DNA from: Flavipsychrobacter stenotrophus
Lineage (GTDB): Bacteria > Bacteroidota > Bacteroidia > Chitinophagales > Chitinophagaceae
DNA: 64,000 bases
Assembly: GCF_002954265.1 (NCBI RefSeq)
Contig: NZ_PPSL01000002.1
Span: forward strand, 620,001-684,000
Direction of reading: 5' to 3'
Shown: piece after piece, positions 38,763 to 43,409 of the stretch
Numbering within the stretch: position 1 is the stretch's first letter
Layout: each line of letters opens with the position of its first letter
Translations under genes and position numbers: made by a program
Notes under the pieces: model-generated
Databases searched by the model: none
Told to the model about the DNA's origin: nothing
The model's input: only the letters and a program-made list of their open reading frames with translations

Positions 38763-39310
38763 AATAGTTTATTGATTATAATAACAATGATGCAATGTAA
38801 CAATTATATCACAAATAAAGAAGTATACAGCCCTTCTTACTAAGTAGGAAATGAAAAAATAAGATATAACCCACCCACATTTCATAACAACAAAAAATAT
38901 ACAACACTTCAAGTAACCATCGCTAACTAATTAATCCTCCCTCCACAATCAAAAGATATCCACATTTTTGTGAATATCTTTATTTTTCAAACTCATTTCC
39001 ACACATTAATTTGCACCTCGGATTATTGTTTTCACCCTTAGTTTACCCAAGGACAGAAAAAATATTACGAAGCGATCTTTGACCTTATGAACCTCAACAA
39101 AACCTTCAACAACCAACTTTTTGGTAAAGACGCATAATTGCGTCTCCCATGCAACTGGACAGAAACACTTCTTGCCCCGACCATCGGGTACGACCGGGCA
39201 CCCCCCCCCAAAGCGCCTGCTGTCGGTATCCAATCGATCCCAATCACAGGTCGGGAGACCGGTTCTCTTTTAGACACCGCTCTCCGCTCTTCCGCTCTCG
39301 CTCTCATTTT

Positions 39311-39410
39311 ATCGGGCACGATCGGGCATAACCAAAAATCACAACCAAATGAAAAACAATCAATTAACCTCCAATCCATGCCCGATTAAATTTTATTTTT
39401 CACCGGGCAT
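39311..39410 (+). repeat. 100-bp GGGCAT repeat unit, copy 3
   Basis: From ATCGGGCACGATCGGGCAT through an AT-rich middle and ATGCCCGAT to CACCGGGCAT, exactly 100 bp. It is preceded by a pyrimidine-rich run (CGCTCTTCCGCTCTCGCTCT), as are copies 4-6. Confidence 0.88.
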
Positions 39411-39561
39411 ACTTCAGAAAACGCCTGTTGTCGGTCTCTGACCGACGACCATCGGGCCGGCTCTCTTTAGTTTCGCTAAGACGTCACTGCGAGGAACGAA
39501 GCAGTCTCGCATCCGGCCGGTTTTTTTTGAGACACCGCTCTTCCGCTCTCGCTCTCATTTT

Positions 39562-39628
39562 ATCGGGCACGATCGGGCATACCCAAAAATCACAAACACA
39601 TGAAAAACAATCAATTAACCCCAACTCC
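39562..39628 (+). repeat. 100-bp GGGCAT repeat unit, copy 4, left part (interrupted)
   Basis: The first 67 bp of a unit, ending in the 8-bp CCAACTCC that is duplicated on the other side of the IS element. The unit resumes at 42919-42951 (33 bp). Together the parts make 100 bp, the length of the intact copies. Confidence 0.9.
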
Positions 39629-39651
39629 GGTAACTATACCCAATTACACGC
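39629..39651 (+). repeat. left terminal inverted repeat of the IS1595 element
   Basis: 23 bp, the perfect reverse complement of 42888-42910. It begins three bases after the stop codon of the lipoprotein passenger gene, which reads towards it. Confidence 0.95.
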
Positions 39652-39654
39652 ACA

Positions 39655-39921
39655 CTAAAGTTGAACGGGGGAACGAGAGCGTCCAATAAAAATTTTGGTA
39701 ACTCTCCCGTTATCGTATTTTACGTAACAAGTATCTCTTCTGAAAAATAGACCAACTCTTACTTTGTAATAGCAAAAATCGTTGCTAGTATTACACCAAA
39801 TTGGAATCCCAAGAGCGTTTTCTACCTTATTTCTGCTTGTTTGGTAGTCTATTTTCTTCGCTTTATATGCTGTGGTGCAACTACCTAAGACTATTACGAG
39901 CACAAATAGCTGTTTTGCCAT
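39655..39921 (-). CDS. small lipoprotein-like passenger of the IS element
   Basis: 88 residues with a short hydrophobic start and a lipobox-like Cys (VIVLGSCTT). The mature part is KIDYQTSRNKVENALGIPIW, CNTSNDFCYYKVRVGLFFRRDTC (in parts) and YDNGRVTKIFIGRSR, which resembles a small SmpA/BamE-like fold of a strand pair after two helices. That comparison is weak. It ends 3 bp from the left inverted repeat and starts 2 bp after a 49-residue gene, so the two form an operon. Role in the element unknown. Confidence 0.65.
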   Translation of the reverse strand: MAKQLFVLVIVLGSCTTAYKAKKIDYQTSRNKVENALGIPIWCNTSNDFCYYKVRVGLFFRRDTCYVKYDNGRVTKIFIGRSRSPVQL

Positions 39922-39923
39922 TT

Positions 39924-40073
39924 TTAAGACTTCTTTTTTGACTTGCTGTTATTGTCAGCATGTTTAACTGCAGCCTTCATAATATCCATGAATGACCCGT
40001 TAACCGTTAGCGGCTCTTCATATGTGCCACGCTCCTTCTTTACGGGAGCTTTCTTTTTTACTGCCTTAGCCAT
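39924..40073 (-). CDS. 49-residue basic protein in the IS element
   Basis: A very short gene reading MAKAVKKKAPVKKERG, then YEEPLTVNGSFMDIMKAAV and a Lys/Ser-rich end. The composition (14 Lys), basic ends and a central NGSFMDIMKAA helix look like a real small protein rather than chance. It is followed after 2 bp by the lipoprotein gene. Similar short proteins may accompany IS1595 transposases in related genomes; I recall the pattern but have not checked it. A DNA- or RNA-binding role is a guess. Confidence 0.6.
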   Translation of the reverse strand: MAKAVKKKAPVKKERGTYEEPLTVNGSFMDIMKAAVKHADNNSKSKKKS

Positions 40074-40101
40074 GTAGTGCAAATTTATACAATAATATTC
40101 T

Positions 40102-40109
40102 TACCTTTG
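40102..40109 (+). promoter_or_regulatory. -7 promoter box of the IS-borne small RNA
   Basis: TACCTTTG matches TAnnTTTG. It lies 29 bp past the start of the divergent 49-residue gene and points at the hairpin-rich stretch ending in a terminator at 40338. Confidence 0.5.
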
Positions 40110-40113
40110 TAAA

Positions 40114-40345
40114 AACAAAACAACCCCCATGTACTTCTCGCTCCTAATGAGGGACTGCTAATGAGGCAGTGAGTATAATGAGGTTCGGCTAACATCTGTT
40201 TGTTTCGCCTATTGGTTTGTTTGCTGCGTCAACAGCTAAAAAAAGCAGTTAGAAGTTTTCACCTTCCATCTCGGAACGGCTAATGAGACCGCCTCTGACC
40301 TGCGTATTAAGTATCTTATTGGGCAATTAAGTTTGCCCTTTATTA
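40114..40345 (+). ncRNA. candidate small RNA with repeated UAAUGAG loops
   Basis: About 230 nt between a -7 box (40102-40109) and a terminator (40321-40338) with no long ORF. TAATGAG occurs four times (40145, 40159, 40176, 40281). Three copies lie in the loops of short hairpins: CTC-CTAAT-GAG, ACTGC-TAATGAG-GCAGT and CGG-CTAATGAGA-CCG. Repeated identical loops suggest a protein-binding or antisense RNA, but this is inference. Several tiny frames with TAATG stop-start overlaps also occur. It lies inside the IS1595 element between passenger genes. Confidence 0.5.
40321..40338 (+). terminator. terminator of the IS-borne small RNA
   Basis: GGGCAA / TTGCCC stem with a 6-nt loop, followed by TTTATTATTTATTT. 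It reads in the plus direction although the neighbouring protein genes read minus, so it implies a separate plus-strand transcript. Confidence 0.65.
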
Positions 40346-40422
40346 TTTATTTAAGTACCTTTACAGAAGTTATGATTTTCGCAAAAAAACTAACTATTGG
40401 GTGGACTCGTTCCGCCCTTTTT

Positions 40423-41244
40423 TTATAGAGTTAGTGCTAAAGCCTCTAGTTGTAACTTCAATATAGTTATGTCTTTTTCTTTTAAGTCCTTCGGGTATGA
40501 TAGGTAAGCCCTTTTGCCCTCTGTTAACTTTATCGGAAGCCTCTCTTCTCCTGCAATCTCTGTAAGTAGCAGTGCGGGTTTTGCTTCATCCTGTACCGCA
40601 GATGTAACGTTTTTTTCGGTTTGTGTAGCTGGTGTTGGGCTACTAGTCACAGGGACTACTTGCACAGGAGGTTCATTGTCTGCAAATTCTGGGATAGGCC
40701 TGCCAGATGGAATGAATCGAAGCACTTCATTATAGCACAGCTTATTACTATCACTCAGTACTCCGACATATTGTGCATTTGATATAAAAACGTCAGCAGC
40801 CGCTTGCGATGCGCCCTCTGATATACGGTGAAACCTAAAAAGGTGGATGTGTAAGTTTTGGGGCAGAATGTCGCCATCAAATTTCTCTACAATATCCGCA
40901 TTGAGGGTTGGCGTTATAAACGCCTTTAGTAATGCTTCAGCCTTTTCTTCTGGGGTAAGGTGGTTGACTATTTTTTTATAAAGTTCGGATACTTTATAGG
41001 TATCCTTCTCTCTCTCTAAAAAACCATAGTGCCCACAGGCCGCTATTTTACTAGGATGCGCTCCTTTAATTAAGGATAGTATATCGTCCCTTTTTGCGAA
41101 GCTATTTCTAAAGTGCTTGTAAACTTCTCCCGTGAATGATAGGCAATACTCTATGCTGTATGCGGGATAAGCAGCACTTCGCTCTATTGACTTCCGAGCC
41201 TTCCCCTCTGTTATTTCTGGATTGGAATTTTGTTCTGTATTCAT
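40423..41244 (-). CDS. IS passenger protein, winged-helix-like
   Basis: 273 residues. The start at MNTEQNSNPEITEGKARK is preferred; the open frame extends further upstream into AT-rich non-coding-like sequence. The N-terminal half has a helical core (AYSIEYCLSFTGEVYKHF, DDILSLIKGAHPSKIAACG, HYGFLEREKDTYKVSELY) that suggests a winged helix similar to DUF5343, then LTPEEKAEALLKAF. A Pro/Thr-rich linker leads to a C-terminal piece (RAYLSYPKDLKEKDITILK) that I recall from other Bacteroidota element-borne proteins. It could bind DNA and help the transposase. Divergent from the transposase gene. Confidence 0.65.
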   Translation of the reverse strand: MNTEQNSNPEITEGKARKSIERSAAYPAYSIEYCLSFTGEVYKHFRNSFAKRDDILSLIKGAHPSKIAACGHYGFLEREKDTYKVSELYKKIVNHLTPEEKAEALLKAFITPTLNADIVEKFDGDILPQNLHIHLFRFHRISEGASQAAADVFISNAQYVGVLSDSNKLCYNEVLRFIPSGRPIPEFADNEPPVQVVPVTSSPTPATQTEKNVTSAVQDEAKPALLLTEIAGEERLPIKLTEGKRAYLSYPKDLKEKDITILKLQLEALALTL

Positions 41245-41468
41245 CTTGTATGATTTTCGCAATTCAAAATTACGAAAAGGAATTTTATAAAAACAACAAT
41301 ATGTAACATATAGTTGACAGGTATTTATTATATATTGATATTCAATGCTATAGCTAATAAACATTTCAAATTAAAACCGACAAGGGAAAAATCTTTTAAA
41401 AATATTTTCAAATAAATTTGTTTTTGCGTGTAGGATGTTCTAATTTTACATTATCAAACACACCGATT

Positions 41469-42464
41469 ATGGACTTTACTTTCAAAAACATATCAGAATT
41501 CAACGATTTTTTTAAAGACGAAAAGACATGCTATGAGTTTCTTGAGACTCAGCGTTGGAACGGTGTTCCAGTATGCCCACATTGCGCTACAGCAAAGAAA
41601 CCATACACAGTAAAAGCACGTGGCAAGTTCATTGATATACCTTCTTATCGCTGTTCTGAAAGGGCTTGCAGTTTGCCTTTCACAGTTCGTACAGGTAGCA
41701 TATTTGAAGGCTCTAAAGTAGAATTGCGCAAGTGGTTTCAGGCTTCTTACGAAATATCAATTTCTAAGAAAGGTATTAGCAGCGTAGAACTTGCAACCCG
41801 TATCGGTGTATCTCAGAAAACAGCGTGGTTTATTAATCACCGTTTACGTGCTATGCTGACAGAAACAGCCCCAGAGTTATTGACAGGTACAATTGAAGTA
41901 GATGAAACTTTTGTCGGTGGTTTGGAAAAGAATAAGCATATCAGTGAGAAGGTTAAGCGTTCTAAGATTAGCCGCAAACTGGATGAAAAGATTGTAACTC
42001 CAAAGACTATGGTATTAGGCATCCTGCAAAGGGATGGTAAGGTAAGAACGTTTGTTGTACCTAACAGACAGGCAGACGTTTTAAATCCCATTATGCGGGC
42101 TAATGTGGAGACAGACTCACGTATAATATCTGACGCATTAGCTTCTTACGTTGAATTGCGTAAGGACTACAACCACATATCTATTAAGCACACTGTTGGC
42201 GATTACAGGACTAAGGGAGACGAACACACCAACAACATAGAAGGTTACTGGAGCATACTTAAAAGGGGCATAATAGGCACGTTTCACTTTGTTAGCCCTC
42301 AGCACTTGCAAAGGTATTGCGATGAATTTGCACACCACTACAATACACGCACTACTACTACTCAGGAAAAGTTCTTAGCAGCAATAAAAAACGCACACGG
42401 GAACAGATTAAAATATAGAGACCTTACACCGAATCAACCAAAGAAAAAGGCTACCTTAAAGTAG
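41469..42464 (+). CDS. IS1595-family (ISXO2-like) transposase
   Basis: 331 residues. The ATG at 41469 (MDFTFKNISEFNDFF) is chosen; an upstream open stretch lacks an ATG. A zinc ribbon (VCPHC ... YRCSERAC, about residues 35-75) comes first, then a helical part (SKKGISSVELATRIGVSQKT), then the ISXO2-like DDE catalytic domain: Asp/Glu in GTIEVDETFVGG, an Asp in ISDALASYVEL, and the terminal EGYWSILKRGIIG with its Glu. It catalyses transposition of the 3.3-kb element and appears complete. Confidence 0.93.
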   Translation: MDFTFKNISEFNDFFKDEKTCYEFLETQRWNGVPVCPHCATAKKPYTVKARGKFIDIPSYRCSERACSLPFTVRTGSIFEGSKVELRKWFQASYEISISKKGISSVELATRIGVSQKTAWFINHRLRAMLTETAPELLTGTIEVDETFVGGLEKNKHISEKVKRSKISRKLDEKIVTPKTMVLGILQRDGKVRTFVVPNRQADVLNPIMRANVETDSRIISDALASYVELRKDYNHISIKHTVGDYRTKGDEHTNNIEGYWSILKRGIIGTFHFVSPQHLQRYCDEFAHHYNTRTTTTQEKFLAAIKNAHGNRLKYRDLTPNQPKKKATLK

Positions 42465-42471
42465 CCTTTTT
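42444..42471 (+). terminator. terminator overlapping the transposase stop
   Basis: Perfect 11-bp stem AAAAAGGCTAC / GTAGCCTTTTT with a 6-nt loop and T tract; the stop codon TAG lies within the right arm. Confidence 0.85.
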
Positions 42472-42565
42472 TTATGGATATACAGGAAGAAATGGAATCG
42501 CAGGTAGTGTCTCAATTTGAATTTTAATAAGACGTTATAGTATTTTAGGGTTCCTCGGTTTTAAA

Positions 42566-42814
42566 TTAGCCTCTTAGTAGTACGTTTATCCCATAACCAG
42601 ACTTCATACGAAAGTATGTGTTAGTCTTTGTATCGTAATGCCACTTGCGGAGTTTTTTTTGTGGTTTATCTACATGCTTCATTTTCCACCCCCACCACAA
42701 CGAATGTTTTATTATAATGTAGGACGGAGATGCAGAAGCGGGGGCGGTTTGCTGCGCTATACTATTTTTAGAGCATAGCATAATAAGTCCAAAGATTAGG
42801 AGAGCGTATTTCAT
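42566..42814 (-). CDS. small secreted passenger protein of the IS element
   Basis: 82 residues with a signal peptide (MKYALLIFGLIMLCSKNSIAQ). The mature part contains PSYIIIKHSLWWGWKMKHVDKP, YDTKTNTYFRMKSGYGI and a short basic end. The start at 42814 is preferred to an ATG ten codons upstream because it places the signal at the N terminus. No family recognised. It converges on the transposase gene and lies 74 bp inside the right inverted repeat. Confidence 0.6.
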   Translation of the reverse strand: MKYALLIFGLIMLCSKNSIAQQTAPASASPSYIIIKHSLWWGWKMKHVDKPQKKLRKWHYDTKTNTYFRMKSGYGINVLLRG

Positions 42815-42887
42815 ATACAGTAAAGATAACAAAATAGGCCGCAATGGCAGCCCTGTTTTCGATAGTTACCCTACTTATTTAGCACCT

Positions 42888-42910
42888 GCGTGTAATTGGG
42901 TATAGTTACC
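42888..42910 (-). repeat. right terminal inverted repeat of the IS1595 element
   Basis: 23 bp, the perfect reverse complement of the left end; followed directly by the second copy of the target duplication CCAACTCC (42911-42918). Confidence 0.95.
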
Positions 42911-43084
42911 CCAACTCCATGCCCGATTAGTACTTATTTCTCATCGGGCATATAATAAGCAACGCTCATAAAACACCGTCAAAGATTGTCACGGTGAGGC
43001 CCTCGAACCGCGACAATCTTTGACGCATCGGGCCGGTTCTCTTTGAGACACCGCTCTCCGCCCTTCCGCTCTCGCACTCATTTT

Positions 43085-43184
43085 ATCGGGCACGATCGGG
43101 CATACCCAAAAATCACAAACACATGAAAATCAATAAATTAACCACAACCCGATGCCCGATTATTTTTTAGTTTTCATCGGGCAT
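43085..43184 (+). repeat. 100-bp GGGCAT repeat unit, copy 5
   Basis: ATCGGGCACGATCGGGCAT to CATCGGGCAT, exactly 100 bp. The middle differs from copy 4 at only a few bases. Confidence 0.88.
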
Positions 43185-43309
43185 ATAATAAGCAACGTTC
43201 ATAAAACACCGTCAAAGATTGTCACGGTGAGGCCCTCGAACCGCGACAATCTTTGACGCATCGGGCCGGTTCTCTTTGAGACAACGCTCTCCCCTCTCGC
43301 TCTCATTTT

Positions 43310-43409
43310 ATCGGGCACGATCGGGCATAACCCAAAATCACAACCAAATGAAAAACAATCAATTAACCTCCAATCCATGCCCGATTAGAATTACATTTCC
43401 GTCGGGCAT
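43310..43409 (+). repeat. 100-bp GGGCAT repeat unit, copy 6
   Basis: ATCGGGCACGATCGGGCAT to CGTCGGGCAT, exactly 100 bp; 100 bp before the GH125 start codon. Confidence 0.88.

Follow-up and report, generated by a model that had tools for sequence, protein, structure and literature searches.

A cargo-carrying IS1595-family transposon of Flavipsychrobacter stenotrophus and a small basic protein proposed to partner its transposase

Structure of the element

The window, i.e., the whole stretch of DNA analysed here, comprises 64,000 nucleotides (nt) of the genome of Flavipsychrobacter stenotrophus (Bacteroidota; assembly GCF_002954265.1, contig NZ_PPSL01000002.1, positions 620,001 to 684,000 of the forward strand). 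Positions 39,629 to 42,910 of the window are a genuine 3.3-kb transposon of the IS1595 family that carries cargo. An earlier, sequence-only reading of this DNA had described an exactly delimited element about three times longer than simple IS1595 elements, and both statements hold. Its inverted ends, which that reading had called perfect and 23 bp long, are indeed 100% complementary and measure 24 nt (39629-39652 and 42887-42910, separated by 3234 nt). They open with GG (GGTAACTATACCC...), as IS1595 ends do: in the subgroups of this family terminal inverted repeats start with GG, and the end consensus of the ISNwi1 subgroup is ggnnatTAT. The 8-bp target duplication CCAACTCC, recognized from the sequence alone and typical of the family, flanks the element on both sides. 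The parts of the element are listed below with the evidence for each; coordinates of the four open reading frames (ORFs) other than the transposase, all on the minus strand and all noticed earlier, exclude stop codons and begin at the likeliest ATG.

39621..39628, no strand: left target duplication CCAACTCC (sequence; empty-site paralogs)
39629..39652, plus strand: left inverted repeat GGTAACTATACCCAATTACACGCA, 100% complementary to the right arm
39658..39921, minus strand: lipoprotein-like ORF of 88 amino acids (aa), an orphan passenger (ORF list)
39927..40073, minus strand: 49-aa basic protein, here called SP, proposed backbone peptide (profile; tree; ratio of nonsynonymous to synonymous substitution rates, dN/dS; AlphaFold (AF2) model)
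40074..40425, no strand: gap of ~350 bp to which no gene is assigned and in which words of the CTAATGAG type recur (direct repeats D5 and D7)
40426..41244, minus strand: 273-aa cargo protein with a winged-helix-like N-terminal domain, apparently exchangeable (AF2; homolog in the related locus L069)
41469..42461, stop codon 42462-42464, plus strand: IS1595-family transposase, 331 aa, zinc ribbon and DDE domain (Pfam; NCBIfam)
42569..42814, minus strand: 82-aa ORF with an N-terminus that looks by eye like a signal peptide, an orphan passenger (ORF list)
42887..42910, minus strand: right inverted repeat, 100% complementary to the left arm
42911..42918, no strand: right target duplication CCAACTCC (sequence)

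The transposase, which begins with the ATG at 41469, is intact, as had been claimed. It matches the Pfam families DDE_Tnp_IS1595 (2.2e-37) and Zn_ribbon_IS1595 (2.3e-10) and the NCBIfam model NF033547 for IS1595 transposases (1.4e-52, 178.7 bits against a cut-off of 75). The element is present in a single copy in its genome (5.43 Mb, 21 contigs), which encodes five further IS1595-type transposases that are 39-42% identical to that of the window. With one transposase, one pair of ends and a single genomic copy, a compound transposon was rejected. No Rfam match at E 0.1 was obtained for the gap at 40074..40425, and a known structured RNA was dismissed as its content, the sole Rfam match being below threshold and located elsewhere.

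The insertion site corresponds to one unit of an intergenic repeat. Two intact units, located ~230 bp to the left (39361-39388) and ~440 bp to the right (43360-43387) of the insertion, each differ at 3 positions from the 28-base empty site obtained by joining the flanks (chance expectation 0.00). Units of this repeat (ATCGGGCACGATCGGGCAT... / CATGCCCGATTA) are clustered and recur on both sides of the element, at 39301-39628 and 42919-43300.

Relatives of the element

Three sources supplied relatives: 59 related genomes, the genome_contigs collection, where scanning kept the best 80 of 384 relatives, and loci found by the SP search. An element was considered delimited when its best-scoring ends, 20 nt each with 14 or more matching positions, were flanked by an exact 8-bp repeat, began with GG, GC, CG or CC and gave a total length below 7 kb; this procedure may have misplaced a few borders, and it excludes elements that are larger or have odd ends. 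These criteria delimited 77 of the 121 loci that matched a transposase, and 75 distinct elements were left after removal of the duplicates L072 and L077. The hosts sampled belong to Bacteroidota, Chlorobiota, Acidobacteriota, Actinomycetota, Chloroflexota, Planctomycetota, Pseudomonadota and candidate phyla, with one Streptococcus.

The 75 distinct relatives are 1545-5562 bp long (median 2996), none being shorter than 1.4 kb. Each of them holds at least one non-transposase ORF of at least 100 aa (in the window, the 273-aa gene), these ORFs having been called mechanically, so that a few may be spurious. The large size that had been regarded as a peculiarity of the window copy is, at 1.5-5.6 kb, the rule among delimited relatives. 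Copies with nothing but a transposase between the ends, named in the sequence-only reading as a sign of chance capture, were not encountered among these 75 elements, with 44 of the 121 transposase loci undelimited.

Several loci have an unusual structure. A stretch of 11.9 kb in L055 (192-12078, G398:C19) has 20/20 inverted ends, an 8-bp repeat and inverted similarity that extends more than 100 bp inwards, and contains two diverged IS1595 transposases in tandem. L186 (1505-13121, G642:C1) is a candidate 11.6-kb element with perfect 20-nt ends, an 8-bp repeat, a transposase and SP; the 7-kb limit excludes it from our counts. A second transposase match of ~370-390 bp is found inside the elements L076 (6523-6915), L089 (6511-6900) and L202 (7235-7603). 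In L076 it is a 129-aa ORF that consists of the N-terminal zinc-ribbon part only, and in all three a truncated transposase regulator is a candidate function.

Identity and turnover of the cargo

Cargo was compared in pairs of elements whose transposases are at least 60% identical, with six rows dropped (two duplicates and four short transposases). Of 36 such pairs, 27 have no cargo ORF of at least 60 aa in common, and nine share one. In six of the nine, the best common ORF is a 69-aa helix-turn-helix (HTH) gene located behind the transposase in a Mucilaginibacter-type branch, and in one (L119/L136) the common ORF is antisense to a small basic gene. Ordinary cargo is common to two pairs, L069/window copy and L041/L049. 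The elements L039 and L040, both from the genome of the window, have 96% identical transposases, both retain SP at the same end, and have no cargo in common. In the four elements that share it, the 69-aa HTH gene either overlaps the transposase stop codon or comes right after it (element coordinates 4049-4258 in L083, 2684-2893 in L088, 3337-3546 in L094 and 3304-3513 in L082).

The 273-aa protein of the window has a 72% identical homolog in L069, whose transposase is also 72% identical, and a weak one in L073; weak matches were found outside IS1595 elements as well (L208-L211). In L044 and L068 (transposases 71-73% identical) its place is taken by a protein with a RelA/SpoT domain. Neither Pfam nor NCBIfam produced a match to it above cut-off. 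The AF2 model is confident for approximately residues 25-170, and a Foldseek search of the PDB with this model retrieved no match at E <=0.001, several of the weak matches being chains that contain winged helices. Judged from these comparisons, the winged-helix-like gene appears to be exchangeable cargo. The 88-aa ORF, which contains what we take to be a lipobox (LGSC), has no homolog in the related loci searched and, besides itself, one weak, broken match in the 59 related genomes; the 82-aa ORF likewise has no homolog in these loci and two weak partial matches in the same genomes. Since these two ORFs lack counterparts in the searched loci, joint travel of all four passengers was rejected. 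The view of the passengers as an equivalent set that always accompanies the transposase has to be given up accordingly: solely the 49-aa gene recurs widely.

A Pfam scan was made of 125 cargo proteins (123 of 168 cargo ORFs, chosen by hand and mostly the longer ones, and two proteins of L068), with 25 of 27 families listed in one batch. The matches include P63C (seven proteins), N6_N4_Mtase (five), MethyltransfD12 and N6_Mtase (two each), as well as GmrSD_N, MvaI_BcnI, PDDEXK_11, RelA_SpoT, PIN and HNH (also two each). One protein each matched C5 methylase, Eco57I, Vsr, Mrr_cat, Fic, NYN, RVT_1, AAA_21, HSDR_N and Bro-N; DnaJ, trypsin and SecB matches are unrelated to defence. PADLOC was applied to one of three cargo batches, and the 25 families listed out of 247 were all methyltransferase models. 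As a control, 40 of 145 drawn flank ORFs were scanned, and no listed defence-type family was present among 50 of the 91 families matched. The data are suggestive of a cargo bias towards restriction, toxin and antirepressor families; the control is small, and no enrichment value is claimed.

Conservation and position of SP

Homologs of SP were seen first by eye in related elements and then by means of a profile. The profile was seeded with the window copy and nine relatives, so that the frequency of SP in L039-L058 is partly due to construction, and the 12 delimited loci that came from the SP search carry it by selection. With these provisos, 42 of the 77 delimited elements contain SP, or 40 of the 75 distinct ones. 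The latter comprise 18 of 48 found through the transposase alone among the best 80 of 384 genome_contigs relatives, 9 of 14 from related genomes, 12 of 12 from the SP search, and the window copy. All but one of the 18 genome_contigs elements come from records titled Bacteroidota or Chlorobiota. Five of the 30 genome_contigs elements without a profile match (L076, L082, L083, L088 and L094) bear a variant recognizable by eye (KEASNIFHNIIKASV and similar). In the transposase tree, the clade of the window (44 rows, support 96/85) includes 36 rows with SP; the eight others are L041, L049, L081, L111 and four variant rows. In the reverse test, 27 of 42 non-seed SP matches in 244 genomes of the family are located near an IS1595 transposase, one of which is fragmentary.

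The core motif of SP is KY..KL.[IV].G[ST]F.[DE]..K..V in a basic protein of 45-60 aa; the window SP, itself a seed of the profile, fits it. None of 36 SPs matched Pfam or PHROG, and the window SP had no NCBIfam match. Its AF2 model (mean predicted local distance difference test score, pLDDT, 80) consists of a single helix at residues 28-43 with basic unstructured flanks. Distances between SPs follow those between the transposases of the same elements (37 elements, Mantel r 0.49, with 0 of 5000 permutations as high). SP dN/dS is 0.12-0.49 in 8 of 15 pairs, dS being saturated in the other seven. Taken together, the comparisons support the existence of SP as a genuine protein that is kept by purifying selection and distributed with the transposase clade.

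A position script placed cargo of at least 100 aa between SP and the transposase in 28 of the 40 SP elements and SP directly behind the transposase in eight, with four other arrangements. In L076, L089 and L202 the script took the transposase fragment as reference; after correction by hand (window copy unclassified, L202 scored on the fragment) the numbers are 30, 7 and 3. In 18 of 40 elements, the SP stop codon lies 50-75 bp from the element end. In the window this distance is 295 bp, because the 88-aa ORF is located outside SP.

Two further observations concern SP-like genes. The Actinomycetota elements L119 and L136 (transposases 94% identical) have a short block in common (element coordinates 1725-1853 and about 1915-2021, respectively). 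In L119 this block encodes a 42-aa basic ORF and lies directly behind the transposase, in L136 it is ~310 bp away, and it is possibly an SP analogue. A segment of 2031 bp at L199 (3955-5985, G506:C14), which has inverted ends matching at 15/20 positions and is flanked by a perfect 8-bp repeat, contains SP and what is presumably a Rha-like antirepressor but no IS1595 transposase, and is possibly a non-autonomous element.

An SP-like tag in other phyla

In some other phyla, an ORF that overlaps the transposase stop codon starts with a segment resembling the SP core. In five of the 35 elements without SP (L115, L129, L097, L109 and L135) such N-termini score 7.8-12.2 bits, above all 2768 control flank ORFs (maximum 6.9). 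The DNA similarity of L129 and L135, whose transposases are 89% identical, stops at position 1048, 32 bases past the transposase stop codon.

The Rhodobacteraceae, the family of L129, were surveyed in 384 genomes, in which transposase matches at E <=1e-90 define 17 loci in 15 genomes. All nine uncut loci with 64-100% transposase identity, the query's own included, have a long ORF at a 7-nt overlap (in one of them, L241, the transposase contains a stop codon). Two further high-identity loci are cut by a contig end, and at the six loci with about 48-51% identity no long ORF is found at the overlap. The protein body behind the tag is P63C in L235 (by Pfam) and, by similarity to L235, in L236, L239, L240, L241 and L135; it is RhuM in L237 and AAA_31/ParA-type in L242, with no family assigned in L234 and L238. 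Against the SP core profile, nine of these ten tags (the nine Rhodobacteraceae loci and L135) reach 8.0-15.1 bits, and those of eight of the nine loci and of L135 exceed the highest control. Elsewhere, the tagged bodies that pass the profile are D12 and N6/N4 methylases (L097, L109 and L115). Judged by these comparisons, the SP-like core seems to serve as an N-terminal tag that stays while the protein body differs.

Simple and plasmid-borne IS1595 elements

Most descriptions of IS1595 elements present insertion sequences with a single gene and treat passengers as an exception. In a plasmid sample of 17 IS1595 loci (1784 ORFs), the closest transposase is 39.7% identical to that of the window and that of ISPepr2 37.5%. 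Seven of these elements, bare representatives of other branches of the family, are 1004-1190 bp long with an exact 8-bp repeat (L212 ISPepr2, L217 ISRm32, L218 ISH4, L221, L225, L226 and L227). The repeat is imperfect in L222 (1191 bp) and L220 (738 bp), and the 1226-bp end pair of L228 ranks second best. Longer elements with cargo are L213 (2604 bp), L216 (1869 bp, repeat 7/8), L223 (1670 bp, second-best pair) and L224 (3816 bp); at L214, L215 and L219 no element could be delimited.

Among the 1784 ORFs of the 17 loci, the SP profile found nothing in the simple plasmid elements or in the four longer ones at this sensitivity. The sole profile match in the entire sample, at 22.4 bits, is a 60-aa ORF at L214 in Methylocystis rosea that overlaps the transposase stop codon and is absent from the PLSDB gene table, itself incomplete. 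A second small-protein family, F.EAA..L...DE..F...L..[IL]A.QK, was recognized by eye in the alphaproteobacterial plasmid elements L213 (6274-6459) and L216 (5160-5300); the L213 copy ends 62 bp from the element end.

Possible function of SP

The reading that we favour, with modest confidence, is that of a cargo-carrying IS1595 transposon whose backbone consists of the 24-bp ends, the zinc-ribbon/DDE transposase and SP, the latter, or the corresponding tag, acting as a partner of the transposase. We take SP and the tag as a function of the element and not as cargo because they stay when the cargo goes, and a transposase partner is our best guess on what SP does. As in other members of the family, the transposase would act on the terminal repeats and make the 8-bp duplications. 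SP or the tag, with its basic extended segment and one helix, could be a docking peptide and cooperate with the transposase, most probably by attaching to it or to its complex with DNA, and loss of SP would then lower the fitness of the mobile element. The cargo now on board would be the 273-aa protein, which may be a regulator that binds DNA or the product of a defence-type gene, and the two small secreted ORFs (88 and 82 aa) may be late additions. A more far-reaching version, which we consider doubtful, makes SP or the tag an obligatory second component of transposition in a large group of cargo-carrying IS1595 elements across phyla, and its placement beyond the cargo or fused to it a cargo lock, whereby losing the cargo through an internal deletion would mean losing the peptide, and with it mobility, as well.

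A number of observations weigh against a partnership of SP with the transposase. At the profile threshold SP is missing from 35 of 77 delimited elements, including L041, L049, L081 and L111, which lie inside the SP clade and have no recognizable copy; 20 of the 30 genome_contigs elements that lack it are from outside Bacteroidota and Chlorobiota. The cargo-bearing plasmid elements L213, L216, L223 and L224 are without SP by profile, and its absence from the simple IS1595 elements inspected means that SP is no universal cofactor. Conversely, 15 of 42 SP matches have no transposase in the fetched stretch; for six of these the contig is short or cut or the stretch is incomplete, which is not the case for others, e.g., L199 and L207. 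Linkage without function would also yield the Mantel correlation, and the SPs of L039 and L040 have an identity of 0.56, far below the 0.96 of their transposases. The case for homology between the tag and SP depends on a short motif (8-15 bits): the tag of L242 (0.1 bits) is like the others by eye only, and the N-termini of L105, L117 and L145 look similar and fail the core profile.

The main competing explanation, to which we assign a minor though appreciable probability, is that SP or the tag regulates expression, as a translational coupling leader or a transposase repressor, without being part of the transposition complex. The small size and basic nature of SP would suit this role, as would the fixed 7-nt overlap with the transposase stop codon at nine of nine uncut Rhodobacteraceae loci and the 8 of 40 elements (7 after correction) in which SP comes immediately after the transposase. 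Coupling cannot be general, however, since cargo separates SP from the transposase in 28 of 40 elements (30 after correction), and the low dN/dS of SP together with conservative-looking substitutions in the tag argues that the peptide itself matters. It is improbable, in our opinion, that SP is merely a common cargo gene in its own right, such as an antitoxin, an immunity protein or a regulator of the adjoining cargo. Toxin-like and restriction-like proteins do occur among the cargo according to Pfam, and SP is mostly located on the cargo side, but the same SP family stands beside unrelated cargos (winged-helix, RelA/SpoT, N6_Mtase, PIN and protease), its distances track those of the transposase, and a similar tag is fused to methylases, P63C and RhuM proteins, which is not how antitoxins behave. 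Ordinary chance capture, whereby an IS1595 element took up neighbouring host genes once, would account for two of the four passengers being orphans. We consider it very improbable, and rejected it, given that no bare element exists among the 75 delimited relatives, all with a non-transposase ORF of at least 100 aa and none below 1.4 kb, and that SP recurs throughout the clade.

A whole branch of IS1595 elements is apparently built as a vehicle, in which the ends, the transposase and a short peptide are kept and the cargo is interchangeable. If SP is a partner of the transposase, this would suggest how tiny transposons retain cargo, and SP or the tag could provide a sequence handle for finding unannotated mobile cargo and a short peptide for attaching proteins to a transposase. 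A cargo lock, if true, would in addition explain why no bare insertion sequence was seen among the delimited relatives, and the elements would be modular carriers of small genes for restriction, toxins and antirepressors.

Comparison with known systems

The described features of IS1595 are a DDE_Tnp_IS1595 domain, an N-terminal zinc ribbon and usually a single transposase gene, and the related eukaryotic Merlin elements have terminal inverted repeats that start with GG (PMC8101967, the part available). The window element departs from this content by four more ORFs inside its ends; since the wording of the source makes the single gene the usual content, this marks a transporter variant and does not exclude the element from IS1595. 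Transporter insertion sequences (tIS), with passenger genes inside the ends, have been described, and ISNha5 of the IS1595 family carries a transcription regulator as a passenger (PMC3129680; PMC11891212, both as far as available). The passengers of such elements are unrelated to transposition, which agrees with the 273-aa gene being absent or replaced in most close relatives of the window element; SP itself may lie outside this definition.

Siguier, Gagnevin and Chandler reportedly treated tIS of the IS1595 family, ISNha5 among them, in 2009. Like ISNha5, the window element has an IS1595-type transposase and passenger genes between its ends. Judging by the available parts of the descriptions and not by sequence, it is set apart by a persistent backbone peptide or tag with changing cargo. 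Passenger-bearing IS1595 elements are thus already known, and what is new, within the literature searched, is a peptide or tag that is retained while the cargo is swapped; that literature has no mention of it, and an earlier record in Siguier 2009 or ISfinder is possible. ISPepr2, ISRm32 and ISH4 have a transposase of the same family and make 8-bp duplications, but differ from the window element in being 1.0-1.2 kb long, with one gene and no SP.

Outside the family, Tn3-family transposons with toxin-antitoxin passengers likewise have non-transposition genes that are apparently integral to the transposition module (PMC7157771, the part available). They differ in the transposase family and in that an integral toxin-antitoxin pair takes the place of the single peptide that here stands beside exchangeable cargo.

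Two-gene insertion sequences with an accessory protein are exemplified by IS66, with TnpA and TnpB, and by IS21, with IstB. In these, a second protein is conserved with the transposase, as is SP, but SP is much smaller, has no family match, and a core similar to its own can be fused to cargo.

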